From assembly GCA_948474755.1 (NCBI GenBank), contig CAOLHI010007009.1:1-64000 (forward strand): a stretch of DNA of 64,000 bases, given 5' to 3'. Shown here piece after piece: positions 2,823 to 62,945 of the stretch. A program made the position numbers and the translations under genes. Numbering within the stretch: position 1 is the stretch's first letter; every line of letters starts with the position of its first letter. The DNA comes from Ctenosaura bakeri (taxonomy: Eukaryota > Chordata > Lepidosauria > Squamata > Iguanidae). The notes beneath the pieces are model-generated. The model made no database searches. It saw nothing but the letters and a program-made list of their open reading frames with translations, and was not told the DNA's origin.

Positions 2823-3019
2823 GCATTCTGTTAGCAATTGAGGCAGAGCCTGATGCAGACCTAATACAGAGCTGGAAATCTTTCACTATTGTTGATACCA
2901 TAATCTTCATCAAAGCTGCAATGGGGGTAATTAAAAGCTGAAACTGCTAATGCCTGCTGAAAAAAACTTGTGAAGTGCTGGATGATTTTTAGGTTGTCTC
3001 AGGGAACAATGGAGAAGTT

Positions 3020-3240
3020 AGGAGAATCATCCATGCAGCAAGGTGACTTTGTGGAGAAGGATTTCCTGACCTGCTGGATGAGGAAGTGGAGGAACATATT
3101 GATGGCCATGATGAAGTGTTATCCAGTGAGGGATTGGAGGAACTTGTTAAAATGTCCTCAGAGGAAGAAGAAGAAGAAAGGGAAGCAGAACTTGATGCAT
3201 TCAAAAGAGAGAGAAAACAGTTTCCGATTACAATGCTGTG
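3020..3240 (+). pseudogene. Acidic tail of a probable DNA-transposon ORF
   Basis: One plus frame reads LDEEVEEHIDGHDEVLSSEG, then EELVKM and a Glu-rich run (SSEEEEEE), before breaking. It is a low-complexity acidic segment like the C-terminal tails of pogo-like transposases and lies just after the repeat at 2680-2822. No catalytic residues are visible and the identification is weak; it could also be an unrelated acidic coding remnant. Confidence 0.3.
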
Positions 3241-3249
3241 GGAAAAGGT

Positions 3250-4580
3250 TACAGGAGAATAAAAACCCTCAGAGGATCTCCAACCATTGATATTGCCTGC
3301 TCCTGAGACAGAGATCCAACCATCGACATCATCCTGGAGCAACAGTCCAGGATCGTCTTCTCATCAGCCTCCTTCTGGTTGTGATCTGCATTCAAAAGCA
3401 TCATCATCGGGGCAATACTAGCCTACACTATGGTAGTGAGACACTGCTGTAAGGCTACAATTGACCTTCTGCATACAAAAACATTTTGGTTTTGGACTAC
3501 CTGTTAATTTTATGTTTACATAGTTGTACATTGGCTCTGGACTGCAAATAATGGCTACAAAGCATTCCTTCTTTTGGTTACTCAAGCTCTGGCCTTCCTC
3601 TTTTCCCAAATTATCAGAGGAAGACTCATCTAGTCCCACAGATTCTAAGTGCTCACTGGTGAAAAGAGAACAAATGTGGTAGCGAGGGATACAGGGCAAA
3701 AAATGTGAGAGCAATACAGGAATAACACCTCGCTGCTCTCAACGATTTCAGATCTTTGAGGCCCAACGTACCACATCCAAGATTAATAAATGGACTTGCA
3801 GGCCTTGTTTCAGAGTTTCTGTCTATACTCTTTCCAAATTGAAGAAAATAGATCCTGAGAGAATGAATATTTTCAAACGATCGATCAGCAGTATGACAGT
3901 AGCAGGAAAAGAGCTGGTGCAATTCTGAGCAAATGTATATTGCTGAGAGCAAGGGAAAGAATGCTTGTGAGGAAAGGTTGGACAGAACCTAAGTCCAAAG
4001 AAAATATACATGATTTAAAGTTTGCACCGAGAAAGACAGTGGATGATGGGTAAGAGGTGATATCTGCTGAGTCATTGGGTTATGTAACCAAGGCGGGAAG
4101 GTTACATATACTTAAAGGTTTGCTAGAGTTGCATCAGAGATGCATGTATGTTAGTGGGTGAGTTCTAGCCCACTGAGCCCCCTTGATGTCGGGAACAGCC
4201 GGAGGTTATTTTCATGTTTGGATGCTGACAACTCTGTTGGAGACTTGTATATACTGTATGTAATTTTAACTAAGATTTAAAAGCCTCCTGTTGGAAGATA
4301 AGATTTTCGTGGGAGTTTTTTTTCCTGGCTTTAGGGTTTTGTTGCTAAAGAAAACATTTGCTGGGACGTTTTCAAGCTGTGTGAGTAAACTCTGCTGTAT
4401 GGTGATTTTTAAAGGTTTGGGTTTCTGGTGAACTGTCTTTTTGCCAGAGCTCAGTGCTGGGGGGAAGTGCTACTGATTTTTTTATGACTCCCATCATCTG
4501 CCATCCCTCTGACAATGCTGCTACTCCATTTCTCTCTGACCAGACCTCACCAGGAGCGCTGTGTCTAGCTTTTGGCTCCC
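3250..4580. other. No recognised feature
   Basis: About 1.3 kb with only short open frames and no recognisable domains. 4100-4400 has a TATATAC stretch and could be part of an unrecognised repeat. Confidence 0.4.
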
Positions 4581-4589
4581 TAGTTGAAG

Positions 4590-4760
4590 AAGGGCATTGA
4601 CAAGCTGGAACATCCCCAAAAGGGGCAAACCCAGAATGGTCAAAAGTGCAGAAACTAAGCCCCTATAAGGAAAAATTGATGGAATTCTGTAAGTTTTGTA
4701 GGGATGTGTCTGACATGATAATCATACCTAACCATCTGAAGGTCTGACATGGGAAATATA
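4590..4760 (+). mobile_element. CR1 LINE 3' fragment
   Basis: Reads GACAAGCTGGAACATCCCCA then AATGGTCAAAAGTGCAGAAA and ATGGAATTCTG. This is the degenerate form of the CR1 region upstream of the 3' end (canonical sense: the element's '[10 protein letters not shown].gLe..pYeeRLrelg' coding stretch). The same segment is seen better preserved at 8320-8420. Confidence 0.55.
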
Positions 4761-5199
4761 AACCCCAGATCCAAAGTTTTCCCCATACACCGGGTTTTTT
4801 TAGTGGCTTAAAAGTTTACAAACTCCGGGGGAAACATTTCCAACACTTTTAACATTTGTATGGTTGCACCAGGTAACCAGAGAGGGGCCCCACGGTCTGC
4901 CCCCCGAAGGCCCTTTCCCTTTATGCTTTTCCTTTTTCCCGGGAGGGGGAGCAGGAAGAGATTTTTTCAGGCCCAGGGGGGAAGGTTGGAAATATCTCTC
5001 TTCTGTACCCCAAGAGAAACAAATTCCAAAAGTAAGGATGGCAAATCTGACTCTAGACTAGATTGGCTGAAGAAGCAGGGATTGCAATCTAATTCAAACT
5101 CCTGGGCCAGGTTGGATGAACTGGTCCATGAAAGAATCCTCCCACATTTACACTTATAGGAACTCCACTTCTTTTATAACCCAAAGCAAACAGAAACCA

Positions 5200-8100
5200 A
5201 GGCCATTTCTGCACTACACTTTTAGAGTGCTATCCAGAATGCCCAGGCAGTCCTATTACAACATGCTCGTCGAGAAGCCCAGGACAAGTCTCAGAGGAGG
5301 CGGGGGTTCTGGTTGTTGGGGGACTCTTTGCTCAGAGGAACCGAAACGGCAATTTGCAAACCAGAAAAGGGCTCAATAAAAGGCTGTTGTCTTCCTGGGG
5401 CCGGGAAACAACCACATAACAGAGAGGCTAACCAGGCTGGTCAAACACACTGACCATAACCCCTCATTTTGGTTCATGTCGGAACCAATGACACTGGAGG
5501 AGCAGTTTTACCACATCACAAAGGACTACGAACTTATGGGAACAAGCTTAAGGACCTTGGTGCGCAGCTGGTCATTTCGTCTCTCCCCCCTGTTCAAGGA
5601 TACGGCGCACGTGGGGGGAAAGGGCAATAGCAGAGGTCAACAACTGGCTCTGCACATGGTTCTGCCGGGCAACGGTTTGGGTTTTTGGAACATGGCCTGA
5701 ATTTCCATGACCATGGGCTTCTGGGAGGGATGGGCTCCACCTCACAAAACTGGGCAGGAATTTTTTTGCAAACAGTCTCGCGGGGAAAAGGTTAAAAAGG
5801 GTCTTTAAACTAAGTTCCACTGCGGAGGGAGACAATATTTTTGGGGGAAAGGACTTGGCGAGTACGGGGGAAGGGGCCCAAATGATACTGGAAAAGGTAT
5901 ACAAGGGGCCCCAATGATGGGAGGGGGGGGGAAACAATAGTACAGGACTTGCAGGGGGCCGGGGTATTAAGTGTCTCTACGCCAATGCACGGAGTATGGG
6001 AAACAAGCAGGATGAACTAGAACTCCTAGTACAACAAAATAAATATGATTTGATAGGCATCACTGAGACCTGGTGGGATAATCTCATGATTGGAATATAG
6101 GAAAAAGAGGGGTGTAGCCTAGTTTGTAAAAATAGACCAAACAGGGGGAAGGAAGAGCCTTGTATGTCAAGGATGTTTTCACCTGTGAAGAGATCCAGGA
6201 CTTAAACCCAGAAAGCCAGGTCGAGAGCATTTGGGTAAGAATTAAGGCAGTAGAAATAATAGGGATATCCTGGTGGGGGTTTTTCCAGACCTCCAACCCA
6301 GGCTGGGGGACTTTGATGACGCCTTCCTCAACCAAATGACTGCACATTCAAAGAGGAGAGCTACAGTAATAATAGGAGATTTCAATTACCCGGATATATG
6401 CTGGCAGTCAAACTCTGCCAAGACGGCAGATTTCCCAGCAAGTTTCTTGCTTGTCTTGCAGACAACTTCATGGTCCAGAAGGTGGAAGAGGCCACAAATG
6501 AATATTCTAAATTGATCCTGACCAACAGGGATGACCTTGTGAATGAGGTAGGGGTTTGGATTTTAGCGGGGAGGGGACCATGCCCTGTTGGAATTTGGCA
6601 TTCAGTGGGAAGGAGAAGATAAGTGTCCCCCAGACACTCATCTTTAATTTTTTAAAAAAACGGACTTCTGTAAACTTAGGGAGCTGCTGGCGGGAAATTC
6701 CGTATAAAAATAGTGAAAGGGAAAGGATTTTCAGGAGGCATGGGAGTTCCTTAAAAAGGGGGAATACTAAACGCACTTAAAACTGTGCCAATAAGGAGGA
6801 AAAATGGAAGGCGTCTAAGAAACCAGAATGGTTAACTAAAGAACTCTTAGCTGAGCTAAGTGTTAAGAGAAACATGTATAGGAAATGGAAAAAGGGGGGG
6901 AAACAAAAAAAATTTAAGCAATTTAGCCAGGAGATGTAGGGAGGAGGTAAAAAGGGCCCAAAAAGCAAACGAACTTAGGCTGGCCAGAGACTTTAAAAAA
7001 CAATAAAAAGGGTTTTTTAAAAATTTGTCCACAGCAAAAGGAAAAAGGAGACGATAGGGTCGCTGCGCAGAGAAGATGGCTAATTACTCACAGGGGGAAG
7101 AGAAAAGGCAGAACTACTTAACACCTTCTTTGCCTCCGTATTTTCCCAGAAGGATGCAAGCACTCAACCTGGCTTTGGGGGAACGGGGAGGAAGCCGAGG
7201 AAATGAGGCACATAATAGGTAGAGAGGTGGTACAGGAATACCTGGCCACACTGGATGAATTCAAGTCTCCAGGGCCAGAGGGAATTGCATCCTAGGATAT
7301 TAAAAGAGCTGGCAGAGGTCTTTTTTGGAAAACCGTTTGCTATAATTTTTAAAATTTGGAGGACAGGAGAAGTTCCAGCAGACTGGAAGAAGAAAATGTT
7401 ATCCCCATCTTAAAAAGGGGGAAAAAAAGGGGCCCCCAAAATTATCGCCCAGTCAGCCTGACATCAGTACCCGAAAAGACCCTGGAGCAGATCATTAAGC
7501 AGTCAGTTTTCCTAATCATTTAGAAAGCTAATCACGAGAAGTCAACATGGGTTTCTCAAAAATAAGTATGCCGGGACTAATTTTATCTCTTTTTATGATA
7601 GAGTTTTACATAGATGAAGGGAATGCTGTGGTTGTAGCATATCTCGATTTCAGTAAGGCCTTTGACAAAGTTCCCCATGACATTTTTGCAAAGAAGCTAG
7701 TAAAATGTGGGTTGGACAGGGCTACTGTTAGTTGGATTTGTAATTGGTTGACCGATTTGAACCCAAAGGGTGATCAGGAATGGCTGCTTTCCATCCTGGA
7801 GAAAGTGACTAGGGGAACCCCCGGGGTTTTCCTGGGCCCAGTGCTGTTCAATTTTTTTATCAATGACTTGGATAAAGGAATAGAGGGCATGCTCATCAAA
7901 TTTCCCAGGTGATCCCAAAATTTGGGGAAAAGGGTTTAATACCCCAGAGGACAGGATCAAAATTCAAAATGACCTGGAAAGATTGGAGAGCTGGGCCAAG
8001 GCTAACAAAATGAAATTCAACGGGAGAAAGTGTAAGGTCCTACATTTAGGTAGAAAAATGGAATACAGAAATTTTAGGATGGGGGACACGTGGCTGGATA

Positions 8101-8790
8101 GCAGTACGTGTGAAAGGGATCTAGGAGTCTTCATAGACCACAAGCTGAACATGAGTCAGCAGTGTGATGGGGGCGGGCCAAAGAAAGCCAATGCAATTTT
8201 TGGATGCATCAATAGGAGTATGGTGTCTAGATTGAGGGAGGTATTGGTACCGCTCTACTCTGCTTTGGTTAGACCCCATTTTGAATACTGTGTCCAGTTC
8301 TGGGCACCCCAATTAGAGGGACATGGTCAAGCTGGAGCAGGTAGGGGGGGGCGACCAAAATGGTTAGAGGCTGGAAGCCATGCCCTATGAGGATAGACTT
8401 AGAGAGCTGGGTATGTTTAGTCTACAGAAGAGAAGGTTAGGAGGGGACATGATAGCCATGTTTAAATATTTGAAGGGATGCCATATGGAGGGGGGAGAAG
8501 GCTTGTTTTCTGCTGCTCCAGAGACCAGGACAAGGAGCAAGGGAATTGGGGGCTCCCCGGGAAAAGAGATTCCACCTGAACCTCAGGAAGAACTTCCTGA
8601 CAGTCAGGGCTGTCCGGCAGTGGAATGTGCTGCCTGGAGTGTAGTGGAGTCTCCTTCCTTGGAGGTTTTTAAGCAGAGGCTTGATGGCCATCTGCTGGGA
8701 GTGCTTTGAGGGTGTTCCTGCAGGGGCAGGGGGTTGGACTGGATGGCCCGTGTGGTCTTTTGAACTCTACCTTTCTATGATTCTATATTC
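5200..8790 (+). mobile_element. CR1 LINE, near full length (copy 1), frame-broken
   Basis: Plus-strand CR1 retrotransposon. ORF1 esterase-like part: VVGDSLLRG near 5310 (GDSL block, one base out of frame) and HVGTN(D)T near 5472 (GTND block). ORF2 endonuclease: 'CLYANARSMGNKQDELELL' at about 5968 and VIIGDFNYPDICWQSNSAK at about 6368. Reverse transcriptase: [16 protein letters not shown] at about 7636, then a 'GPVLFNFFINDLDKG' stretch. The FADD catalytic motif seen in copy 2 is destroyed here (7893-7930). C-terminal region at 7983-8709. The 3' end has the TTCTATGATTCTATATTCTA tail typical of CR1. Frames are broken at many homopolymer runs. Compared with copy 2 (32762-36180, minus) many differences look like base smearing, so some breaks may be technical. 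Confidence 0.92.
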
Positions 8791-11859: not shown

Positions 11860-13425
<1,566 letters not shown>

Positions 13426-14103
13426 CTAGAAAGGAGAGGAACAAAAAAATAAAACCAAGTGAAAAGGAGTGGGAAAAGTTTAATGGGGAAAAAGTTTAAA
13501 AAAAACACACCCACAAGAAAAAAAAGATACGGGTTTTTCTTTTTCCCCTTTTTCGTGGTCTTTTAGGCTCCCCCTTTTTTTCTCTTTCTGGTATTTCAAG
13601 AGCTATATGCAAGGACTGACATCTTCGTTTTCCTACACCAAGTTACTGATTTTTAAATGGTTTTATATACTATGGTACTTTTATGTGAGATATGACATGC
13701 ACAAATAATAACAGTCATTGTAATAGTGATGGTGATAGTGCTGATGATAAGGAAAAAGGAGGAGAAAAAGAAAGAGAAGAAAAGGTCTGTCATGACATTT
13801 CCACCTGGCAAAAATCTGTGCAAGGAATGGCTCAGCTGGACTGCTGCTCTCATGTCTTGTTTGATATCTTTCCCCCAGGTCCCTGCTAGACAAAGGGAAC
13901 ACAACTGTGGATCATGGAAGCTTTGGGGGGGGGAGGGTTTGAGGGAAGGGGGGTTCCCCAGGTGCATAAGAACTTATACCATCCACCTACAGACTCACCA
14001 GGAGTAAGCCAGGCCGGTCCCAAGGTCATATGAGTATCCATAGAAAAAACACATAAACAGTCCAACGGTAAATGAAGCAAACAGTCCTGTTGTTGTCTGT
14101 TGG

Positions 14104-30121: not shown

Positions 30122-31590
30122 CTATGGTTTCTCTCCTATGTGACTTCTTTTGTGATACACAAGCCCTGAACGGTGAGGAAAACATTTCCCACACTCCTGA
30201 CATTTGTATGGTTTCTCTCCTGTGTGGATTCTATTATGTTCCCCAAGCTCTGAACTGCGAGCAAAACATTTCCCACACTCCGGACATTGGTATGGTTTTT
30301 CTCCTGTGTGGATTCTCTTGTGAATCAGAAGGTGTGAACTGTGAGCAAAACATTTCCCACACTCCTGACATTTGTATGCTTTCTCTTCTGTGTGGATTCT
30401 TTTGTGACTCTCAAGACGTGAACTGCCAACAAAGCGTTTCCCACACTCCTGGCATTGGTATGGTTTCTCTCCTGTGTGAAGTCTCTGATGGCTAACAAGG
30501 CTTCCATTCCTGGAAAAAAATTTCCCACACTCCTGGCATTTGTATCGTTTCTCTCCTGTGTGAATTCTCTTGTGAATCACAAGCCCTGAACCATGGGCAA
30601 AACATTTCCCACACTTGTGGCATTTGTATGGTTTCTCTCCTGTGTGGATTCTCTTGTGACTCTCAAGCTGTGAACTGCTAACAAAACATTTCCCACACTT
30701 CTGACATTTGTATGGTTTCTCTCCGGTGTGGATTCTCTTGTGAATCAGAAGGTATGAACTTCGAGCAAAACATTTCTCACACTCCTGGCATTTGAATGGT
30801 TTCTCTCCTGTGTGAAGTCGCTGATGGATGACAAGGCTTCCATTCCGAGAAAAACATTTCCCACACTCCTGGCATTTGAATGGTTTCTCTCCGGTGTGGA
30901 TTCTCTTGTGAATCAGAAGGTATGAACTTCGAGCAAAACACTTCCCACACTCCTGGCATTTGAATGGTTTCTCTCCTGTGTGAAGTTGCTGATGGATGAC
31001 AAGGCTCCCATTCCGAGAAAAACATTTCCCACACTCCTGACATTTGTATGGTTTCTCTCCTGTGTGGATTCTCTTGTCAATCAGAAGGTGTGAACTGTGA
31101 GCAAAACATTTCCCACACTCCTGGGACTGGTATGGTTTCTCTCCTGTGTGAAGTTTCTGATGGTTGACAAGGCCTCCATTCTGAGAAAAACACTTCTCAC
31201 ACTCCTGGCATTTGAATGGTTTCTCTCCTGTGTGAAGTCTCTGACAGATTACAAAGTCTGAACTGTGAGCAGTGTGTTTCCCACATTCTTGGCATTTGTG
31301 TACTTTCGTTTCTTTGCAGACTGCTTGATGGCTCAGATGGGGGAATTCGTAATCAAAACCTTTTCCTGAGACTTTACATCTGCAGAGATTTTTTCCAGCA
31401 CAGAGGGTCTTATTAAACACAAGTGCCATGTTCTGGTTGAACTTTTCCCCACATATGTTGTACTTGAAAAACTTCTCTCTGGTAGACCTTTCCTCTTCTG
31501 GGCGGTCTTTCTCGTGTCTGGAAAGTTCTTGTGTGTACCCAAGACAAATTTCAGATATGATGCACGTATTTCCCTTCTTCCGGTTATCTC
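30122..31590 (-). CDS. C2H2 zinc-finger exon (last coding exon of the SCAN-KRAB-ZNF gene), copy B
   Basis: Encodes the DNA-binding part of a KRAB-type transcription factor acting in the nucleus; such proteins bind DNA through tandem fingers, and their KRAB domain typically recruits TRIM28. The exon starts after the acceptor TTCTGTTCCTCTCCTTTCTAG and begins GA GAT AAC, so the KRAB exon's trailing G completes a Gly codon. About 80 leader residues contain two decayed finger-like units ([25 protein letters not shown]). Fourteen consecutive 28-residue fingers with TGEKP linkers follow, ending at TAG (30124-30122). Twelve have all C2H2 ligands. Finger 1 has Cys for the first His (FVICQRLH). Finger 3 has Ser for the second position Cys pair (YQSQEC) and Asp for His (LLIDKRIH). 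Most carry an extra Cys (CGKCF). Fingers 4-5 and 6-7 are near-identical pairs. The exon is uninterrupted, unlike copies A and C, so it is the likeliest functional array here. Confidence 0.93.
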
Positions 31591-32761
31591 CTAGAAAGGA
31601 GAGGAACAGAAAAAAGTCAATCCAAGCAGAAAGGAGTGCGAAAAGTCTTAATAGAAATGTTGCTAAAAACAACTCACCCATGGAGAAAAGGAAGAGGTAT
31701 GGTTGTTCTTTGCCCTTTCCGTGGCCTTTTAGGCGCCCAGCTTTTTACTCTTTCTGGTATTTCAAGAGCTATATTCAAGGACTGACATCTTTGTTTTCCT
31801 ACACCAAGTTACTGATTTTAACTGAGTTTCATATACTATGGTACTTTCATGTGAGATATAACATGCACAAATAATAACAGTCATTGTAATAGTGATGGTG
31901 ATAGTAGTGATAATAAGAAGAAGGAGGAAAAAAAGAAAGGGAAGAGAAAAAAGTCTGTCATGACATTTCCACCTGGTAAAAATCTGTGCAAGCAACGGCT
32001 CAGCCGGACTGCTGCTTTCATGTCTCGTTTGATATCTTCCCTGAGGTCCCTGCTAGACAACGGGAGCAGACTGTGGATCATGGAAGCTTTGGGAGGGAAG
32101 TCTGAGGGAAGGGGGGGTTCCCCAGGTGCATAAGAACTTACACCATCTACCTACAGACTCACAGGGGTAAGCCAGGGCGGTCCCAAGGTCATATGAGTAT
32201 TCAGAGAAAGAGACACGTAAACAGTCCAACGGTAAATGAAGCAAGCAGTCCTGTTGTTGCCTGCTGGCAACTGCTTTCAAGCTGACTTTCATTTATGGAG
32301 ACCCTGTGAACGAGAGACCTCCAGGTCACCCTACCCTCAACAGTCCTGCTGAAATCTTTCAGACCGAGGGCCATGATTACTTCATTGTGTCTATCACTCT
32401 CTAATGCAGTCTCCCTCTTCTTCTACTACCTTTCACCCTACCAACCATCACTGTCTTTTCTAGTGTGACACACTGTCTCATGATACGTCCAAAGCATGAC
32501 TGTCTCTGGTTAGTCATCTCAGCTTCTAGGGAGAGGTCGGCTTCATTTGCTCATGGACCCATTTATTCGTCTTTTTAAGAACTTCAGGCTATCCGTAGAA
32601 CTCTTCAGGGTATCCGTAGAACTCTTATCCAGCACCACATTTTAAACGAGGCAATTTTCTACCTATCACCCTTCTTCACTGTCCAACTTTAACAAACATA
32701 GGTAGAAATTGGAAATGCAGTGGCATACGAAGCCCTAACTTGGTATTCAATAATCTCTCTT

Positions 32762-35700
32762 GATCATAGAATCATAGAAATGTAGAGTTGGAAGAGACCC
32801 CAGGGGCCATCCAGTCCAACCCCCTGCCATGCAGGAACACCCTCAAAGCACTCCCGACAGATGGCCATCAAGCCTCTGCTTAAAAACCTCCAAGGAAGGA
32901 GACTCCACTACACTCCGAGGCAGCATATTCCACTGCCAGACAGCCCTGACTGTCAGGAAGTTCTTCCTGAGGTTCAGGTGGAATCTCCTTTCCTGCAGCT
33001 TGAATCCATTGCTCCTTGTCCTGGTCTCTGGAGCAGCAGAAAACAAGCCCTCTCCTTCCTCTACGTGGCATCCCTTCAAATATTTAAACATGGCTATCAT
33101 GTCCCCTCTTAACCTTCTCTTCTGGAGACTAAACATACCCAGCTCTCTAAGTCTATCCCCATAGGGCATGGCTTCCAGGCCTCTCACCATTTTGGTCGCC
33201 CTCCTCTGGACTTGCTCCAGCTTTTAAATATCCTTCTTGAATTGGGGTGTCCAGAACTTGACACAGTATTCAAGATGGGGTCTAACCAAAGCAGAGTAGA
33301 GCGGTACCAGTACCTCCCTCGATCTAGACACCATACTCCTATTGATGTAGCCGAGAATTGCATTGGCTTTCTTGGCTGCCGCATCACACTGCTGACTCAT
33401 GTTCAGCTTGTGGTCTATGAAGACTCCAAGATCCCTTTCACACGTACTGCTATCCAGCCACGTGTCCCCCATCCTATATTTCTGTATTCCATTCTTTCTA
33501 CCTAAGTGTAGGACCTTACACTTCTCTCTGTTGAATTTCATTTTGTTAGCCTTGGCCCAGCTCTCCAATCTATCCAGGTCATCTTGAATTTTGATCCTGT
33601 CCTCAGGCGTATTAGTAACTCCTCCCAATTTGGTGTCATCTGCAAATTTGATGAGCATACCCTCTATTCCTTCATCCAAGTCGTTGATAAAAATATTGAA
33701 AAGCACTGGGCCCAGAACAGAACCCTGTGGCACCCCGCTAGTCACTTCTCTCCAGGATGAAATGCAGCCATTCGTGATCACCCTTTGGGTTCGGTTGGTC
33801 AACCAATTACAAATCCAACTAACAGTAGCCCTGTCCAGCCCACTTTTTACTAGCTTCGTTGCAAGAATGTCATGGGGAACTTTGTCAAAGGCTTACTGAA
33901 ATCGAGGTATGCTACATCCACAGCATTCCCTTCGTCTATCAAGCTCGTAACTCTTATCATAAAAAGAGATAAGATTAGTCTGGCATGACTTATTTTTGAG
34001 AAATCCAGTTGACTTCTCGTGATTACCACGTTGCTTTCTAAGTGATTAGAAACTGACTGCTTAATGATCTGCTCCAGGATCTTTCCGGGTACTGATGTCA
34101 GGCTGACCGGGCGATAATTGTTTGGGTCCTCTTTTTTTCCCTTCTTGAAGATGGGGATAACATTTGCTCTCTTCCAGTCTGCTGGAACTTCTCCTGTCCT
34201 CCAAGATTTCTCAAAGATTATATCAAGCGGTTCCGAAATGAACTCTGCCAGCTCTTTTAATATCCTAGGATGCAATTCATCTGGCCCTGGAGACTTGAAT
34301 TCATCCAATGTGGCCAGGTATTCCTGTACCACCTCTCTACCTATTATGTGCCTCATTTCCTCTGCTTCCTCCCCTGCTCCCCAACCGCCAGGTTGAGTGC
34401 TTGTATCCTTCTGGGAAAAAACTGAGGCAAAGAAGGTGTTAAGTAGTTCTGCCTTTTCTCTTCCCCCTGTGAGTAATTTGCCATCTTCTCTGCGCAGCAA
34501 CCCTATCATCTCCTGCTTTTCCCTTTTGCTGTAGACATATTTAAAAAAGCCCTTTTTATTGTTTTTAATGTCTCTGGCCAGCCTAAGTCCGTTCCGTGCT
34601 TTAGCCTTTCTGACTTCCTCCCTACATCTCCTGGGTACTTGCTTAAATTCTTCTTTGGTGGTTCCCCCCTTCTTTCATTTCCTATACATGTTTCTCTTAA
34701 CACTTAGCTCAGCTGAGAGTTCTTTAGTCAACCATTCTGGTTTCTTCAGATGGTTTCCATTTTCCTCCTTATTGGCAGAGTTTTAGACGGTGCCTTCAGT
34801 ATCTCCCTTTTTAGAAACTCCCATGCCTCCTGAACTCCTTTCCCTTTCACTATTCCTGACCACGGAATTCCAGCCAGCAGCTCCCTAAGTTTACAGAAGT
34901 CCACTTTTTTAAAATCTAAGATGAGTGTCTGGCTACATGTATCTTCTCCTTCCCACTGAATGCCAAATTCCAATAGGACATGGTCACTGCCCCCTAAAGA
35001 TCCAACCACTTCTACCTCATTAACAAGGTCATCCCTGTTGGTCAGGATCAGATCTAGAATATTTGATCCCCTTGTGGCCTCATCCACCTTCTGGACCATG
35101 AAGTTGTCTGCAAGACAAGCAAGAAACTTGCTGGACCTTGCTGTCTTGGCAGAGTTTGACTGCCAGCATATATCCGGGTAATTGAAATCTCCTATTATTA
35201 CTGTATCTCTCCTTTTTGAATGTGCAGTCATTTGGTTGAGGAAGGCATCATCTAAGTCCTCAGCCTGGGTTGGAAGTCTGTAGTAAACCCACACCAGAAT
35301 ATCCCTATTGTTTCTCGCTGCCTTGATTCTTACCCAGATGCTCTCGACCTGGCTTTCTGGGTTTAAGTCCCGGATTCTTCACAGGTGAAAACATCCTTGA
35401 CATACAAGGCTACTCCTCCTCCTTTCTTGTTTGGTCTGTTTTTACAAAATAGGCTATACCCCTCTATTCCTATATTCTAATCATGAGACTCATCCCACAA
35501 GGTCTCAGTGATGCCTATCAAATCGTATTTATTTTGTTGTACTAGGAGTTCAAGTTCATCCTGCTTGTTTCCCATACTCCTTGCATTAGTGTAGAGACAC
35601 TTAAGTCCCTGGGCCCTTCCTGCAAGTCCTGTACTATTGTTTCTAGTCCTCCCACCAATGGCCACTTGTCTCTTGTCCAGTATCCTTTTGGGCCCTTTCC

Positions 35701-44850: not shown

Positions 44851-45311
44851 GGTAAGGTGCTCATCCCTTAGAAACCGTCTAACGGTATCATCCCTGAAGG
44901 GCTCCGACAGGGACGTGGTGGTTGGTATGCCACGATTGTGGTGAGGTACACTTTAGCGACAGGAAGGCCAAACCCTGTTGCCGGAGGTGCAGTAGGAAAT
45001 GAGGAGGTAGGCAAGGCCGCAGGTGATCCGTGTCCCCTCTCCCCTCTGAAAGGGCCCAGAAGGCCGCTCTTTAGGGGTTTGCGGCGCGTCGACTCCTTCC
45101 TGGCCGAAGTAAAACTTACGGAGGAGGGGGTGGTCTATAATGATATTAACGGCTGGAGGGCCAAGAGCGGCAAGTCCGGGTGGAGCACGACCCGTCGGAG
45201 TGGGACAGCAGATCCGGCGTCGATGGGAACCTGAATCGATCGCACGCGGCCTGGAGCAGGGGTGTGAACCAGTGCTGCTTTGGCCAGTACAGGGCTAAGA
45301 ATGACGTCTGC

Positions 45312-45960
45312 TCAGTAGTGGGATCTCGATATCACCCGACCGAGGAGGGGAAACGGGGGGAATGTTAGGGAGCCCTTCGTTCCACCTGAACTGGAGGGCG
45401 TCGCCCATGGAACCTCGATCCTGACCGGCCCACGAGCAGTACCGACACTTCGCATTCTTGTTGGCTCCAAAGAGGTTGATCTTTGGTTCCCCAGCGTTCT
45501 GGATATCCGGAAGCCTCGTGGGAGAGGCCTCGTGATGAGAAGACGTTCCCTGCTGAGCATGTCTGCTGTGGTGTTCTCCTGCCCAGCCAGGTGAACCGCC
45601 ACAGGGTGGTTGAGAGGAACACACCAGTTCCAAAGGTCGAGGGCAATGCTGAGGAGGGTGCTCAAATGAGTCCCTCCTTGCCTGTTGACGTAGCAGACCA
45701 CCGTCGTGTTGTCCGTCAGGATAAAGACCGTGTGGCCAACCACAATGTGGCGGAATGCCCTCAGCGCTTTCCAAATGGCGAGCAGCTTGAGATTGTTGAT
45801 ATGGAGAACGGTCTCGGTCGCTCCAGTGGCCCTGGACTCTGAGCTCGTCGCAGTGAGCCCCCCAGCCGTGAGGGAGGCATCTGTCGTCACTGTGACCCAT
45901 GGCGCTGGCCCCCGGAAAGGCATCCCCGACAGAAGATTGTTGTAGGACTGCCAGCAGAGC
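45312..45960 (-). pseudogene. DIRS RNase H domain, frame-broken
   Basis: VTVTTDASLT (first catalytic Asp) near 45890, then a one-base shift to GWGAHCDELR. Back in the first frame: LHINNLKLLAIWKALRAFRH (Glu-equivalent region), VFILTDNTTVVCYVNRQGGT (second Asp) near 45720, then CVPLNHPVAVHLAGQENTTA and DMLSRE (third Asp). This is the order of DIRS/Pat RNase H domains. Follows RT and precedes the recombinase. Confidence 0.92.
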
Positions 45961-46229
45961 AGGGAGGGACGGATCGGGCCCGGCAGCTGTAGTCGCGGGG
46001 TCGGCTCGTCTCATGGGGGTTAAAAGCACGGACGAACCAGTGTTGGAGAGGCCTTGCGCGCAGCCGGGCGAGATAATCACGGCGGTTGTGGAAGCCTTTG
46101 CCAAGGAGGCTGGATCCTCCTGGCCGATGCGTCAGAGCATTGTACACTGCCGACGCGGTTTAGATTAACTCTGTCTGGTCTATGGAGGAGGCTCTGGCTG
46201 ATACCGAGTCCAGTGTGGCACCGATAATC

Positions 46230-46960
46230 CAGCTTCCTTGCCAGCTCGAGGTGGGACTTCTTCGGATTGACCTGGAGACCGAGACGGGTCAAAAGGTCAA
46301 AGTCCGGTGGATGTCGTCGTAAAGTCTTTTCTGGGACCCCACCAACAGCCAATCGTCCAGATAGGGATAGACGGAGAGGCCCTTCGTCCGCAGGTATGAT
46401 ACCACCGGGGCCATGCATTTGGTGAAGATCCTGGGCGCGGTGAGAGACCGAACGGTAGCACCTTGTACTGGTAACAGGTGCTGTCAACCATGAAGCAAAG
46501 GTCCCGTTGTGCTGCACGCAAATGGCGATGTGGAAAAAAGAATCCCGAGATCGATGGAGGTAACCCGTCTCCTCGACAAAGGAAAAGGCAGGATCAACAG
46601 CAGCGTAACCATCTTGAACCTTTTGGGGCGGATGTATTCGTTCACCCCTCTGAGGTCTAGGATGGGCCGCAGGGATCCGTCTGCCTTGGTCCGTGAAGTA
46701 CCGGGAGAAGAAGCCGGTGGTGCTGGCTGGGCGGGAGCCTTTTCGACTGCTCCCTTCTGAAGCGGGACTGGATCTCTTCCAGCAGGACCGAGCTGGCCGG
46801 GGTTAGAACACCTCGTGGTGGAATATCTTGAAACTCGATGGTGTAGCCAAGACAGACGATAGAAAGTACCTAAAGTCCGTGGTATGTGACGCCACTCCGC
46901 GAGATGCCTTGCCAAGCTCGGTTGATCTTGAAAGCTGTTGGGAGGCTGAAGGTTGGGTGC
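46230..46960 (-). pseudogene. DIRS reverse transcriptase, frame-broken
   Basis: KADGSLRPILDLRGVNEYIR at about 46695-46635 (finger/palm start), FMVDSTCYQYKVLPFGLS at about 46495-46440, then in the next frame PRIFTKCMAP and YPYLDDWLLVG; the catalytic YLDD is coded at 46352-46363. At least three frame changes. Intact catalytic wording in a broken frame points to moderate age. Confidence 0.92.
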
Positions 46961-46999
46961 AGCGGCGGCTGCGTAGGCGGTCAAAACCCGGACTTCGAG

Positions 47000-48900
47000 T
47001 CGGACAAAAATTTTTTTGACGACGTGGCCGGACGTCGCCTAACGATCTCCCCCAAAACCGGTGGTCGGGACTGTCCAGATTGTGTGGACCGCTGCTGAAA
47101 AAGGGCGCCGAGGATTTACGCCAAGATTGGCAGGAGCCTGAGGACCGACGGACCTGCAATGGTTGGTGCATCCCCATCTTCTTGGCGGTAAAAGCGCCTT
47201 GATGATGGAGTCCATGGTCTCTTCGGTCACGGAGTTAAAAAATCCCCCGCCATCAAAGGGGAGTTTTTATCCGCTTTCGGCTGTCCTCCTGGAGTCCAAT
47301 GATTGTAGCCAGGCATGTCAGCGGAGCGCAACCAAACCTCCCCCTCACCCTCGAAGCGACCTCCACGGCGTGCTTTGAGGAGACTATCTCTTGGTTGGCT
47401 ATAGCCATAGCCTTTGTAGAGCTGGGAGGCGGGCCATGGTTCCTCCGGAACCGTTGCCATACAGGGGCCCTGGTTAGAATATTATGCAGGTATGCCACGA
47501 TGAAGGCCTGCGTGTTGGACAGTCTAATGTGGAGCGAGCAGGCAGAATAAAAACCCCCTGGCGAAGGCGTCCAACTTCCCACCCTCGGGTCCAGCAGTGT
47601 CATATGCGCCCTGTTGCCTCCCTTGACCTGAGAACTGACAACGATCGAGTTCGGTACCCGATGACTGAAGAGGAAGCCGCCCTTTTCTTTCTGCAACCGG
47701 TACAGATGCTCCAGGTGATGTGTTCGGCTGGGCCAACGCCGGTTTTGCCCAGGGATGTTTCACGGCCTTAAGGATCTTTTGGGAAGATCGGCAGCGGAGC
47801 GGTGGCCTGCTGCTTTGGTCCACGTAGGAGAAGACGGGATCATTCTCCTCCGGTTCTGAAACCTTTAGGTCGAGGGTCGTGCCACACGTAGCAGGATCCC
47901 GGGTTTGGGGGTCCTCTGGTGACGAGTCCGGATGGCCCCAAAGCCTGATGGTGGTGGCGTGGGATGCCGGGTGGGTCCCGGGGTTCCTCGCCAATTTGTA
48001 GGATCAAAGGACAAAACTGAGACCTCTTTGGGCACCCGTTCTGGGGTTGGATCCCTGGATGCCCGCCGGGGGCACTGGCGTGTTGTCTCTGCCTGAGCAG
48101 CTGCCACCGTGCTCCGTCATGGTTGCCCTTGTCGCGGTGGCCGTCCATGATGGGCTCTTTTTCCAGGACAGCCGACCTCACCGTCTTGATCACCGCCACG
48201 GTCGTGGTCTGGCAGGCCGCCCTAGAAGTCATCGCCGCTCGTGTCGAGATCGTCTCCACCAGTCGCGTAGCGGTGGAGGTAACCATAGGTGGAGGTGACA
48301 CGGCCTGGTAGTGTGGCGAAGGCCCCTCGATCTCCAATAGTGAAGAGATGGGGAGGCGTAGGAATGGTCATACCGGCGTCGTTCTCTGGCTGAACAAATC
48401 GGGAGCGGCCATCCTGTGACCTCCCTACGCAGTGAGCGAGACCGACGGTCCTCTCTTTCCGGGGTGAGAACGCCTGTGGGCTCCCCGCGCCTGGAGTCAT
48501 GGTGGTACCGATCCCCGGGACGACGGAGAATGGGAACGGTAAGGCGCTGGACATTCTCTCCATTCAGACTCATAACGCACCTGGAATATGTGAGGCCTAG
48601 GTGTCCGCGAGTCAAGGAAGGGGGTGCTGGTCGTCATGCACCTCCCGGCGCCAAGGAGATGGTGGCACTTCTGCCCGAGGCCGAACGGTGCCTGGGCGAG
48701 GCCGGACAGTACTCCATCTCCTGCTCTCGTCGGTCAACCGCCCTGCGGTGACTCGACGGGCACTGGATCTCCGTGAGGATTGGAGGTTCCTCCAAAGGTG
48801 AGACAGGCTGATCCTTTGAGGCAAGTCCTCCTCATCAGACAGCTTGACGATCTCACCATGCTCCGACAGCTGCTCCTGTTGTTAGGGAGCTGAGTCGGAG
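47000..48900 (-). pseudogene. DIRS gag-like region, degenerate
   Basis: Upstream of RT in element sense, Arg/Ser- and Pro-rich minus-strand frames (for example MPQRISLSHLWRNLQSSRRS at 48824 and RSRSLRREVTGWP near 48500). Basic, low-complexity and frame-broken, as expected for DIRS ORF1. No diagnostic motif was seen; assignment is from position. Confidence 0.5.
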
Positions 48901-51260: not shown

Positions 51261-51502
51261 ATTTTGCAGACCAACAAAACGTATAGGGCACTTGGGGGTG
51301 GGACTGGGACGTAGCAAATTCCAGTTCTAGCCCCAACCAAATCATTGCATGTATAACGCATTAAACATGCATGGCGAATATCTTAGGTCAACTCAAGAGT
51401 ATCACGATAACGAGAAAAGCAAACAACAATGACATCCTATAGAAATTACACATGAAATATGAACAGCAGGTCAACAAAGAATGTAACATTCAGAAGGCAA
51501 TC

Positions 51503-51510
51503 CTCTAAAC
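51503..51510. repeat. 8-bp target-site duplication, left
   Basis: CTCTAAAC, identical to 54716-54723. Eight base pairs is the hAT signature. Confidence 0.93.
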
Positions 51511-51639
51511 CAGCGGTTCTCAACCTGGGGGTCGCGACCCTTTTGGGGGTCGAATGACCCTTTCACAGGGGTCGCCTAAGACCTCCCTTCAAGCCCTTCT
51601 CAGGTTGAGCTTCTAAAGCTCCTGAACCATCTTGCCCCC

Positions 51640-51787
51640 ATTTTAACTAAGGGAAGAAAGTCATGGTAGTGGGAGCTGGGAGCCCGTTCCCTCTTGCGTT
51701 CTCTGACCGTGCATGCGGACTAGCCGACGGGAGAGGTGAAAGTGGGCGCCATTAAAGCCCGCTGAGAGAAAGGCTGCCGAGCGAGCA
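51640..51787 (+). promoter_or_regulatory. Captured promoter/5'UTR-like segment upstream of the KIFBP start
   Basis: Moderately GC-rich, no TATA box, directly upstream of the KIFBP ATG: TTGCGTTCTCTGACCGTGCA, then GCGCCATTAAAGCCCGCTGA. ATG context GAGCAATGG is good. Consistent with a housekeeping promoter captured along with the first exon. Function inferred from position only. Confidence 0.5.
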
Positions 51788-52102
51788 ATGGAAGAAATGG
51801 CGGCGCCCCCGGAGTGGGGTTCGATCTGCGAGAAATTCCGCAGCGCCCTCAACCTCTCCTACATGGAGTCCAAGAAGGACCCGGAGACCGAGCCCTATCA
51901 CTCCAAGTATAGCGCCCGGGTGCTGCTTGAAGGCGTTAAGCAGCTGCTGGGCTCCGTGGAGGTGGGTGAGGCCGAAGGCACCCCGAGCGCGGGTGAAGAT
52001 GGAGGCAACGGCCACGGCGGCGGCGGTGGTGAGGCAGAGCGCCTGTGCGCTGTGCGGCTGGCCGTGGTCAAGTACGAGCGGGAGGTGAACAACACCGACA
52101 CC
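51788..52102 (+). pseudogene. KIFBP: Captured 5' coding part of KIFBP (KIF1-binding protein)
   Basis: The plus frame starts MEEMAAPPEWGSICEKFRSA and continues with YMESKKDPETEPYHSKYSAR and VLLEGVKQLLGS, a Gly/Glu-rich spacer, then RLCAVRLAVVKYEREVNNTD and T. Human KIFBP (KIAA1279) starts in the same order: W..VCEKF.AAL, KNPEKEPYKSKYSARALLEEVKALLG, an acidic spacer, then AVRLAVIEF...VN.IDT. KIFBP is a TPR-repeat protein that binds kinesin motor domains; only its first ~105 residues are here. The match stops at 52102 without a convincing GT donor, so the exon is cut inside or its donor is lost. The frame stays open to 52753 (321 codons), the rest unrelated. Inside the SPIN-like element, so this is a captured copy, not the native gene. 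Confidence 0.88.
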
Positions 52103-54620
52103 TCCATCCAGTCCAGTACGCGGGGAAGGCCAGGCGTGGGGCCTGCTGTCGTGGGAGTGACCCCTGGGAGGTGCACGGTGCAGCGATGGGGAGGCCGGGC
52201 AGAACCGCGGCTCCCTTCCCTGCGGGAGGGGAAGGGGCCGCCGCGGCCCATCAGGCCCCTCTCGTCGCACACACACACACCCGCTCGGGGAGCACCCTGG
52301 CCCCGCGGGCAATGCGAGGGGCTGGGGTGCTCCCGGAGCAGGCGCGCGCGCATGCAGCAACATTCTGAGCTGAGGTTGAAACTGGTCATCCCACAAAACA
52401 GTTCTGTGTGCATGTTTTTAAGAATTCACCCCAGAACAAGAAAAACCTATTCCAAATGCAGCTTATGGTCATGTTCAGAGCCGGTGAGGAGCTGGCGAAG
52501 GGGAGAGGGCGGGCGGGCGGGCGGGCGGGTGCAGGCACCCGGTCCGCCGACCCCCAACCCCTCCTCGGCTCCTTCCTCCCGCCCCGTCTCCGGTCAGCTG
52601 GCAGCGGCGGCAGCCCTCCGCCGCGCTCGCTCTCCAAGGGACTCGCCCGGAAAATGGGTATGGGACTGGATATTAACAGAAGAAGAGAAGGCAGCCCTTT
52701 ATGCTTTTTTTAAAAATGAAAGTTTTAAGAGAATAGTAAGAGCGATTCATTGAAAACGTGGATCCGAGATTTTTTTTCCTGTATACTGGCATTGCTTGCA
52801 ATGTGTTAGCCCTGTAAATGCTGTGGCATAGGATAGGTTGAGCTTTCCAAGCGTGGATCTTTAGAAATTTTACCACACTCCCTTTATTTCCCCCCAGTCC
52901 TTCATAAGTCTTCGTTTTTCCAAACTTTGCCAGGTGTTCCTTTCCTCTCACGCTCTCAAATCTCTCCTTCTCTCGGTCTTCCCCACACGAACCTTGCTTG
53001 CTCTTTCAATACACTGAAGTCCAGTCCAGCTTTTCGTTCTCAGTTCAAAAGCACAGTCCCATGATCCACCTTTGTCTCTCTTCCAGATTCTACTCTCCTT
53101 TCGTCCTTCACTGTTCAGCTCCAATTTTTCACTTCCACTCTATCCTATTTTCAGTCTTCTTTCAATTTTCTTCGTCACAATATCCAGTCTATCCCAGCCC
53201 ACTCTAACTTTCCAATGTTTCTCTTTCCTTCCTTACTCCTTTCCTTCCTTACTCTCTCCGTGTTTCCGTAGCAGCTCCCGCTTTCGTTTTTCAAGTCTCT
53301 TCCCTTTTCTCTTTCTTTCCCAGCGTCTCCCAACTGTTTTGCTTTTCCACGGACAGAACAGACAGAATTCCAGGTTAATTCTTTACTCTTAATGTTCCTC
53401 AGTCTGCTTTCAATTGTTTTCAACTGTATTCATTTTGTTTGTGGAAAAAAAAACTGATGAAAGAAGGAATAAGGGATTGCAATTTACATTGGTTTTTCCT
53501 TCTTTTTGCACTACTTTACAGCCTGCTTTATAGAGTGCTGTAGAGCAGATGACACAGCTGTGATGGGAAGAAGAAATCAGTAAAAGTGACCTCTTTACCA
53601 TCCCCCCTTTCAATGAGCAGTTTTTTTGACTGGAATTCCACTTGCAGGTGTCTGGATCCAACCTATTTGGTTTGGCATTGTGGAACCTTTGTTAAATTTC
53701 TGCAAGACATGTGAAAAATATGCATACAGGACACATGAAAATGGCATCTTGTCACTATTTCTTTTTTGTTTATTATTGAAGCAATATGTCTTTTACATTT
53801 ATTTGCCTTTTTGTAAAAGTAAACTTTGTAAGAGATTTCCAGCCATGTTTGTAATAGTACTGAAAACACAGGACAGAATAAGAATTCTAGAAAGGAAAGA
53901 AGTGAGACAAAATACTATATTAAAACTGCAGTACATGGAAATCATGTGACACTGTTTTAGATGTAGCACAATTAAAACAATTATATTTTCTGTACACTTC
54001 CTTATCTGAGGCAAGAAGTTGGCCTCTGAATCTTTAGGAACTACCATATGTTTTTTCAAGCCTGAGAAAAGTAGCATGGCCTGTGATAATTGTACTTCTC
54101 AGAAGACAAGAGAAGCAGCCCACGAGAAATGTTGCCATTGCATTGTTTTGTATTTTTCCTAAACTTTAGGAATGAATTAAATTCTGTGCAATGGCTCTTA
54201 CCCCTTTTAAAGGTGCCAGTTTCCTTAAAACTTTGGCCTAGCTGGGCTTACAGTTTCCAGTGCCTGTCATGTTTGTCTGTCCCAGTATATTTTATATTGG
54301 ATTTGTGGAGTTGGAGAGAATAAGACAAAGACATACTGTGAGAGAATTTTCTCTTGAATGTGTTCCATTTCCAGCTGTGACAACTTCTCATTGTTTGAAA
54401 AAGAAATTTCTAGCAGTGAGTATCAAGTTAAGAATAGACTCTGCTTGGTACTCATCCACTACCTGTGGATTCTGGGAGATATAATTCAAAAAATAGTAAC
54501 ATTTCCAAGTCCATTATAGTTTATGTACGTTGAAAGGCCTTCTTCCCCAGTTCTGACTGCCAGAGAGAGACTATAAAAACCTGACATTTTATTTAGTTAC
54601 TAAATAAATAAATAATAAAT
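52103..54620. other. Remaining interior of the hAT element
   Basis: 52103-52380 is GC-rich, with a short (CA)n at about 52268. 52480-52660 is CpG-rich with a (GGGC)n run at 52506-52529 that could form a G-quadruplex on one strand. 52700-54500 is mostly AT-rich or T/C-rich and non-coding. No hAT transposase (no RW, DDE or dimerisation motif) was recognised on either strand. A short (AAAT)n lies at 54601-54630. Confidence 0.6.
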
Positions 54621-54715
54621 AAATAAATAACAAAAATAATTTTATGGTTGGGGGTCACCACAACATGAGGAACTGTATTAAGGGGTCACGGCATTAGGAA
54701 GGTTGAGAATCACTG

Positions 54716-54723
54716 CTCTAAAC
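54716..54723. repeat. 8-bp target-site duplication, right
   Basis: CTCTAAAC, identical to 51503-51510. Confidence 0.93.
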
Positions 54724-55193
54724 TTACCCCCATGAGGAACATTAATTCACATTTTTATTTAATATAAAATCAATAAGCAAGACAGATAATGACTGAATAA
54801 AGAAGGCAGTACTGAAGAATCAATCTAATACAAATAAAGGAGCAAACATATGAGCTCAATGATTTGAAACAGATAAGGGTTTCGGCGATATCGGACAAAC
54901 CGCCCATTAAAAATAATAAGTAGCTACTGAGAGGGCTCTCTCCTCACCAAATACACCTCGGAAGCTGGAGGGACCAGAGAAAGGTGTTGCCTCGGAATCT
55001 TAAAATTCAGGTAGGTCATTCAGACTGTCTGGACCTCAGCCATAGCAGACTGTGTAGGCTACAACCAGACTTTTAATTTCACCTGAAAACAAACTGTTTT
55101 GCATTGATTATACTATCCAATCCCCCCCACTGAATGGCAACATTTGGCAGCCAAACACAATGAGGACTGTGCCCAGAGATGGGTTCTCCTTAC
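54724..55193. other. Intron 2, no recognised feature
   Basis: Non-coding between the hAT element and the 127-nt exon. Nothing assignable. Confidence 0.5.
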
Positions 55194-55320: not shown

Positions 55321-55704
55321 CTGAAAGAGCAGGGAGAGGTCCAAATTCAGTGTCGAGACAGCTTAGAAAATGATAAAAGAATTGTCTTGCACAATATCAC
55401 ATGAAAAAATTAGCAATTGTAACACGGTTACTCTGCAGAGTGGGATTAGGTTACATTTCAGTGTGGATGGGAGCACATTTTACCCCTGAACCCATAGAGG
55501 GGCACAGGCCACCCCTGCTGGGTGACACAGGATGAATGGACTTGACAGTGGCTACGAGGGGGTCTTTGGGGCTGGGAAAGGGGAAAACGAACCAGATCCT
55601 GCTGACTGGCCCATATCTCGTCCCAGATTGGGAGAAACGCAAAATATTTATTCAATCCATCCATCCATCTCAGCTTGAGAGACACCAAGAGGAAATGCTC
55701 TCAC

Positions 55705-56115
55705 CTGCTCTTCCTCTTTCTTGTCTTCAGCCTGACTCAGGAGGAAACTTTCTGCCAGGGCCACTGCCTGGGAACAGCTCTCTGCCCCACATTCCCTGAT
55801 CCAGCTCCCCATCTCTGGGGGGAGGATGCTCAGGAACTGCTCCAGGATCACCAGGTCCACGATCTGATGTTTGGTGTGTTCCTTTGGCTTCAGCCACCGG
55901 TGGCAGAGATCGTGGAGGCGACTGCAAACCGCTCGGGGCCCCTGGCCCTCTTGGTAGGAGAACTGCCTGAAGCGCTGACGCTCTGTTTCTGAACTACCAG
56001 AGGCCTCACTCAGGAACTTCTGCACTGTTGCTTCCCAGAATTCCCCATGGCTCTCACCACCAATGCCATTAGGGCCTCCTCCTGTTTTGAGTCCAGCTGA
56101 CTCTGACTCATCCAT
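55705..56115 (-). CDS. SCAN-domain first coding exon of the zinc-finger gene
   Basis: Encodes a 137-residue N-terminus starting [10 protein letters not shown]. The SCAN domain (residues ~44-127) reads [60 protein letters not shown], then [20 protein letters not shown] and FLL. SCAN is a leucine-rich dimerisation domain found with C2H2 fingers. The start ATG is six bases after an acceptor-like CTTCGTCGGATACCAG, so an upstream 5'UTR exon is expected, probably in the CpG island at 57-58 kb. Donor GAGCAG|GTGAGA after 55705, phase 0. The open frame extends upstream to 56418, but that part is not SCAN-like. No disruptions. Confidence 0.93.
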
Positions 56116-56488
56116 CTTAAACTGGTATCCGACGAAGCAGAAAATGGGAGGAAAATGACTTTTTCCCACCGTCCCTTCTTTCGGGGCAACGAATCCCTGA
56201 ACACCTTTGCTACAAACTCTGCAAAGCCAAGATGTTATTGTGTTAAGAACTGCTGTACTGCAAGAAAAAAGGCAGGAATTCAGCACAAAAACAAGTCTCT
56301 CTTCCGTGAAGGAAATGATCAGAATCGGGTAAGAGAACTGGGGAGGCTTCCCACCAAGGGCCACCAAGCAAAGCCTTGTTTGGTTGAGAGTCAGAAGAGG
56401 GTGCATCTTTCCTCCCAAGCCTCTGTCTCTCTGTCTCCCGCCCCTGCCTTCCCTCCCTCAGCCTTCCACTGAGCCATCTCTTCTCTGG

Positions 56489-61929: not shown

Positions 61930-62735
<806 letters not shown>

Positions 62736-62861
62736 AAAGAAGGAGAGGAAGAGAGAACAATCAATCCCAGTCGAAAGGAGTGGGAAGGGTCTTAATGCAA
62801 ATATTCCTAAAAAAAACACCACCAAGAGAACCCCTCTCACTGGGCTTTTAGGCTCCAGGGT

Positions 62862-62945
62862 CAGAATCATAGAATCATACCATTGGAAGAGACCCCAAGA
62901 GCCATCGAGTCCAACCCCCTGTATATGCAGGAACACCCATCAATG
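62862..62945 (-). mobile_element. CR1 3' end stub
   Basis: TCAGAATCATAGAATCATAC, TGGAAGAGACCCCAAGAGCC, ATCGAGTCCAACCCCCTGTA and GCAGGAACACCCATCAA: the complement of a CR1 3' terminus, well conserved. Confidence 0.85.

Follow-up and report, generated by a model that had tools for sequence, protein, structure and literature searches.

The stretch analyzed here, 64,000 nucleotides from Ctenosaura bakeri (Squamata; Iguanidae; contig CAOLHI010007009.1, positions 1 to 64,000; hereafter, the window), contains at positions 51511-54715 a complete hAT-type transposable element with SPIN-like ends that encloses genomic DNA of the host gene KIFBP. The window is C6994:1-64000 of the assembly that we searched (1.90 Gb in 8006 contigs); in this assembly the KIFBP segment of the element recurs at no fewer than 39 distinct further places, that is, at least 39 besides the window and the native gene. 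The family to which the element belongs has moved as a unit and multiplied. We consider it highly probable that the element belongs to an amplified, non-autonomous hAT family, in which KIFBP DNA was probably captured by template-switching repair after excision and a SPIN-type transposase presumably acted in trans. An initial annotation, made from the letters of the window, had proposed a mobile unit that distributes a KIFBP promoter and N-terminus; the amplification bears this out.

The element in the window

The element is bounded by an exact 8-bp duplication (CTCTAAAC at 51503-51510 and 54716-54723) and by terminal inverted repeats (CAGCGGTTCTCAACCT and CAGTGATTCTCAACCT) that match at 14 of 16 positions, both as first annotated; both repeats start with CAG, as expected for a hAT element. 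The ends resemble those of SPIN elements; the family is putatively assigned to SPIN, and called SPIN-like here, from its end sequences, its structure and its target site.

The frame that starts with ATG 51788, the translation of which begins MEEMAAPPEWGSICEKF..., is open for ~321 codons in the window copy and matches residues 5-110 of human KIFBP (PDB 6zpg) with an E-value of 2e-16. The run of ~105 KIFBP codons that had been noted in the window is therefore genuine; the start codon that had been assigned to it is probably not that of the founder (vide infra). Pfam gave no match for this frame at E 1 and none at E 0.1 for nine selected open frames of longer copies; Rfam gave no match at the gathering score for 51400-54800.

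The native gene as donor

Searched with the KIFBP family model (PF12309), the genome gives two matches, both on the minus strand of C193 (576276-579175); the larger contains one in-match TAG. On the same strand, ~20 kb upstream, C193:599091-599604 lacks a SPIN end and codes for KIFBP beyond the point at which the family's copies break off, so we take it as native exon 1. Numbered in gene orientation, this native locus (L031) has a promoter, ATG 3205, an open exon and a splice donor, CAG/GTGGGG (donor and exon end assigned by eye). The window is thus not the native KIFBP locus, a reading rejected because the PF12309 exons and native exon 1 are on C193.

The element matches the native gene in order at 2997-3510, 4172-4389 and 4659-5390; the match to its right part was also recovered in the genome search with 53420-54600. 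The promoter-like segment annotated before the start codon corresponds to the native KIFBP promoter, and 51582-52102 is 87% identical to native promoter and exon 1; within it, the codons at 51788-52102, for which a comparison with native exon 1 had been proposed, match up to a breakpoint at native 3510. The initial description of the contents, promoter plus N-terminus, was correct but lacked KIFBP intron 1 and the non-KIFBP filler. Because promoter and intron 1 blocks are present and collinear with the native gene, the capture was from DNA, not mRNA, and a processed pseudogene is rejected.

The breakpoint is upstream of the end of native exon 1, so the native splice donor is not carried. The amplification on which a suggestion of chimeric transcripts had depended is real; with the donor missing, exon trapping is a less likely source of such transcripts than suggested.

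In two copies (L022 and L023), 6 bp separate native 4393 from native 4546; given this junction, native 4394-4545 resembles an insertion that the native gene received later. Repeats resembling later insertions are found in native intron 1 both there and at ~3740-4090.

Copies in the genome and their target-site duplications

The family search with 51511-52200 returned 41 rows from the best 40 of 1151 candidates; apart from the window itself, the long matches are 82-91% identical. With the KIFBP segment alone as query (51590-52102; best 40 of 52 candidates), 40 of 40 match, including the window and the native gene. The count of at least 39 further places combines 38 places from the first search with C1991 and C1659, minus one duplicate, and leaves aside places identified by the interior only; as query, 53420-54600 (best 40 of 48 candidates) identified further contigs beyond those listed for the KIFBP segment, some by a 415-bp piece alone. 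The duplicate is the pair L045 and L046, which have the same insertion with the same flanks on two contigs (99.8% identity) and are probably one locus assembled twice. The 39 copies analyzed below (38 distinct) are the window copy, 20 copies with flanks and 18 copies with short stretches.

Nineteen copies, including that in the window, could be examined at both ends (the right ends of L019 and L028 are beyond the examined stretch). Their own 8-bp duplications, with letters that differ from those in the window at most copies, are exact in 14 and agree at 7/8 positions in three; two copies (L016 and L022) have none. When left and right flanks were paired across different copies, exact agreement occurred in 1 of 342 pairs, so the duplication in the window is more than chance. 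Three further loci have an exact duplication (C1017), one with 7/8 (C1474) and none (C3138), the last two judged by eye; at C3106, the left element end was not found. The 19 left duplications have T at position 4 in all, A at position 5 in 18 and A at position 7 in 14, that is, a common TA center with a tendency towards nTCTAGAn, which is presumably the SPIN target preference. Both ends act as one unit at many sites, and the concern that they might derive from two separate insertions in the window is removed.

The 300-bp upstream flanks of 21 copies have no match among themselves at E 1e-6; segmental duplication is rejected because these flanks differ. The two-ended copies are 1.5 to 4.6 kb long. 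KIFBP-bearing copies occur as local pairs on C4347 (L021 and L027, ~9 kb apart in opposite orientation) and on C1017 (L033 and L043, ~42 kb apart). In the right parts of L019 and L028, long open frames like those of long interspersed elements (LINEs) are found within or just past the KIFBP-bearing copies. The parts of the window copy are collected in Table 1.

Table 1. Parts of the element in the window, with positions in the window and native positions in gene orientation of L031.
Feature	Position	Strand	Remark
Left target-site duplication CTCTAAAC	51503..51510	+	
Left terminal inverted repeat	51511..51526	+	16 bp, 14 matches to the right one
SPIN-like 5' end	51511..51581	+	~112-117 bp in the longest subfamily; putative family assignment
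Captured KIFBP promoter and 5' untranslated region	51582..51787	+	native 2997-3204
Captured KIFBP exon 1 codons	51788..52102	+	stops at the family-wide breakpoint, native 3510; remaining exon 1 and splice donor absent
G+C-rich filler, part one	52103..52359	+	no match in native KIFBP; parent not found
119-bp filler of the window's subfamily	52360..52478	+	96% identity to C1640:145502-145620 (L051)
G+C-rich filler, part two	52479..52649	+	parent not found
Captured KIFBP intron 1 block A	52650..52869	+	native 4172-4389, 90%
Pyrimidine-rich stretch	52870..53427	+	lacking in L022 and L023
Captured KIFBP intron 1 block B	53428..54163	+	native 4659-5390, 91%
415-bp piece common to other copies	54173..54587	+	not found in 12.6 kb of the native locus
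SPIN-like 3' end	54629..54715	+	87 bp in the window copy; up to ~395 bp in L023
Right terminal inverted repeat	54700..54715	-	
Right target-site duplication CTCTAAAC	54716..54723	+	

The founder and its patchwork filler

The first KIFBP block ends at native 3510 in 36 of the 39 copies (two bases earlier in two copies and 16 bases earlier in one); this common breakpoint points to one founder. Left borders are more diverse: native 2888-2919 in 17 copies, 2997 in 15, 3002 in one, 3009 in one and 3013 in five. In the 17 copies of the long subfamily, SPIN and KIFBP sequence meet at one common left junction, ...GAGACACCTAGTCTAGAGCTTGCTG, apart from scattered changes (the native gene reads ...ACTCTAGGGATTGCTG); in L019, a deletion extends to the left junction. 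From the junction of these long copies, the founder would have had a ~112 bp SPIN-like 5' end followed by KIFBP from native 2888. At the other side, the KIFBP block of L023 stops at about native 5397 and is followed by ~395 bp of SPIN-like 3' sequence; this sequence starts with a short open stretch (LVRKKQSQPSH and a stop, read by eye), possibly the last part of a transposase frame. The simplest founder would be a SPIN element carrying, instead of its transposase gene, ~2.5 kb of KIFBP genomic DNA together with ~550 bp of G+C-rich filler. This founder is a reconstruction from several copies, none of which is founder-like over its whole length.

The 119-bp filler (52360-52478) is 96% identical to its counterpart on C1640, and the sequences that surround the two differ on both sides. 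No parent of the G+C-rich filler was found among the best 40 of 55 candidates in the genome; the matches listed are at places that the other genome searches had also identified, except for the 119 bp on C1640, a further copy with KIFBP DNA on C1659 (L052) and, on C515, a relative that has no KIFBP segment (L050). The 415-bp piece was not found in the native region C193:590000-602600.

Divergence, subfamilies and decay

Divergences were calculated at non-CpG sites against the majority sequence of the copies; those for the intron blocks include only copies that cover at least 60% of the block. For the block of promoter and exon (39 copies), the distance from the majority is 0.044 for the native gene and, on average, 0.032 for the copies. 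With 16 of 21 copies included, the corresponding values for intron block A are 0.050 and 0.031; for intron block B, with 10 of 21 included, they are 0.033 and 0.020. These values fit a capture in the lineage of Ctenosaura bakeri itself, with the split between native gene and family occurring little before the copies spread.

In a tree of the 39 copies and the native gene, the branching is star-like and the native gene joins near an unsupported midpoint root. Six copies (L009, L010, L024, L025, L027 and L033) form a young clade with support 100/99 and end branches of 0.008-0.03; a clade of eight (100/98) comprises these six, the window copy and L011, with weak support (83/34) for the window copy being closer than L011 to the young clade. 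On these branch lengths and groupings, the younger subfamily marks a later wave of re-amplification, with the window copy as a near relative of that subfamily.

The captured sequence has decayed. Of 2184 cells (56 native CpG sites in 39 copies), 1142 are still CG and 930 are TG or CA, and the native gene has an observed/expected CpG ratio of 1.01, compared with 0.62-0.90 for the copies; this decay suggests germline methylation. Substitutions per codon position (1, 2 and 3) are 0.040, 0.030 and 0.030; the lack of a codon-position bias indicates no coding constraint, so we read the KIFBP frame as a passenger. Eighteen of the 39 copies are without a stop or frameshift, and 17 of these 18 have ATG at codon 1 or 4. 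Codon 1, tallied by eye, is ACG in 19 copies, ATG in nine, ACA in nine and another triplet in two, whereas codon 4 is ATG in 38; given the tally for codon 1, ATG 51788 is probably a C-to-T change of an ACG in the founder. In the promoter, CATTTTAACT is unchanged in 36 of 39 copies; the motifs that we take to be NRF1-like and YY1-like are intact in five and ten of the 39, respectively. The dispersed KIFBP promoter is probably mostly silenced.

Origin of the family

In the mechanism that we favor, a SPIN element in an ancestor of this species would have excised and left a gap, the repair of which would have filled the place of the transposase gene with ~2.5 kb copied from KIFBP genomic DNA. The resulting founder would have kept both ends, and a SPIN-type transposase would presumably have mobilized it in trans. 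In later rounds, interrupted repair would have deleted some parts and stitched in other filler, giving rise to the subfamilies; the KIFBP part would have been a passenger, drifting and losing CpG sites as methylated DNA does, until a later wave produced the younger subfamily close to the window copy. Template switching in gap repair is preferred to mobilization by two insertions because the filler comes from several loci.

Several observations weigh against this account. Only four of the 36 inner branches of the tree pass both support limits, and most deep branches are unsupported; L016 and L022 (2 of 19 copies) as well as C3138 have no matching duplication; and the G+C-rich filler, the pyrimidine-rich stretch and the 415-bp piece have not been traced to parents. 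In addition, copies have TCTAG at the start of the captured block (native ACTCTAGGG). This sequence is similar to the target motif of the family and fits at least as well, or better, with a second mechanism: two SPIN insertions would have flanked the KIFBP promoter and intron 1, their inner ends would have been lost, and the outer ends would have moved with the DNA between them. A model of capture by neighboring insertions has been proposed for plant Pack-TYPE elements (PMC8903248). The local copy pairs described above for C4347 (~9 kb) and C1017 (~42 kb) also favor such an origin. However, no SPIN end was found in 12.6 kb of the native locus, the right border (native ~5397) is without a target-like motif (by eye), and the patchy filler with its 119-bp piece from C1640 looks like template switching. 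In view of the TCTAG at the left border, we regard the two-insertion mechanism as possible, although not probable.

The capture could also have been followed by use, with the promoter driving transcription of the element or its neighbors or the N-terminus making a KIFBP-like peptide. Promoter, 5' untranslated region and exon 1 blocks are present in all 39 examined copies (although these were found by means of that segment), the frame in the window is open for the length given above, and the promoter sequence CATTTTAACT is unchanged in 36/39. Against this, there is no codon-position bias, 18/39 copies are open without frameshift, the founder's start was probably ACG, the loss of CpG points to methylation in the germline, 5/39 copies have an intact NRF1-like site, and L050, a relative, is without the KIFBP segment; we consider usefulness unlikely. 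Still less likely is capture in another species with arrival of the chimeric element by horizontal transfer. SPIN transposons have reportedly been transferred horizontally among squamates (Gilbert 2012, cited in PMC7397244); however, in a comparison confined to the KIFBP of this genome, the native gene is just 0.033 (block B) to 0.050 (block A) from the intron majority and the copies 0.020 to 0.031, as in a split within a single lineage, so that horizontal capture is not needed. A chance assembly, that is, two unrelated SPIN-like insertions around a KIFBP pseudogene or the native gene itself, is scarcely credible, because many sites have the entire unit with duplications of its own and the native gene is elsewhere.

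Beyond post-excision capture of one gene, the family may belong to a wider 'Pack-SPIN' system in which SPIN-ended hATs repeatedly swap their interior for host DNA, amplify in several waves spread over a long time and scatter CpG-rich promoters and first exons; we offer this tentatively, as a suggestion that falls somewhat short of an expectation. Its signs are the KIFBP block, the 119-bp C1640 piece, the three untraced fillers and a separate SPIN-ended element of 792 bp that is nested in one copy (L016:6403-7194, with GATTAGGG on both sides). The interior of the nested element is unlike that of the KIFBP family, which suggests that other SPIN elements in the genome also carry foreign DNA.

Neighborhood of the element in the window

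Judged by eye, C2H2 zinc-finger-like open frames and a SCAN-like domain are found at 12189-13495, 30122-31744 and 62382-62939 (minus strand) and at 55648-56457 (minus strand), so the element may sit in a zinc-finger cluster. Also by eye, open frames like LINE endonuclease and reverse transcriptase are located at 33224-35378 (minus strand) and 7884-8390 (plus strand), and overlapping frames at 45295-47038 (minus strand) resemble the reverse transcriptase with RNase H of another retroelement.

Comparison with known systems

The element has a host gene fragment between transposon ends with the native gene elsewhere, the arrangement that defines a Pack-TYPE element or transduplicate. Ordinary non-autonomous SPIN elements are short and are not known to carry host genes. 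The family appears to resemble the SPIN (SPACE INVADERS) elements of tetrapods in its end sequences, its 8-bp duplication and its nTCTAGAn-like target, and differs from ordinary SPIN elements in that its copies are 1.5 to 4.6 kb and carry KIFBP DNA.

Among the titles and abstract openings listed in our searches of open-licence papers, we found no report of a KIFBP-carrying SPIN element, of another gene-carrying SPIN element or of a gene-capturing vertebrate hAT. Such capture of gene fragments is known mainly from plants, and promoter capture in vertebrates is known for Helitrons. The family described here is a clear case of gene capture by a vertebrate hAT, and a single genome contains its donor gene, the breakpoint of the founder, its subfamilies and some forty copies. 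Its junctions make the rival mechanisms of capture testable, and its copies are a natural series of dispersed versions of one CpG-rich promoter.

The closest vertebrate parallel is the bat Helitron HelibatN3, which is described as having captured the NUBPL promoter, six codons and a splice donor and as trapping exons (PMC4778049). Like HelibatN3, so described, the family is a vertebrate transposon that amplifies a host promoter with the start of a coding region; it differs in being a hAT, in carrying ~105 exon 1 codons and in having lost the donor, so exon trapping by the same route is not expected. In animals more broadly, a 2008 study states that transduplication of protein-coding genes was unknown (PMC2572040). 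The same study describes Turmoil-1 of C. elegans, which is likewise an animal DNA transposon with coding fragments, in this case within its inverted repeats; its abstract does not describe promoter capture.

For plants, gene capture by a hAT was already described in grapevine in 2008 (PMC2528002), and a 2011 study calls it rare, with none reported earlier (PMC3260210). Maize Ds (PMC3260210), Pack-hATs (PMC8903248) and Hatvine-6 of grapevine (PMC2528002) are alike in having hAT ends around intron-bearing gene fragments and filler; the largest maize clusters, with >100 elements, are given as hAT and PIF (PMC8903248). The family in Ctenosaura bakeri differs from these plant hATs in its vertebrate host and in that one genome reveals the gene that served as donor, a founder with a single breakpoint and several waves of amplification.

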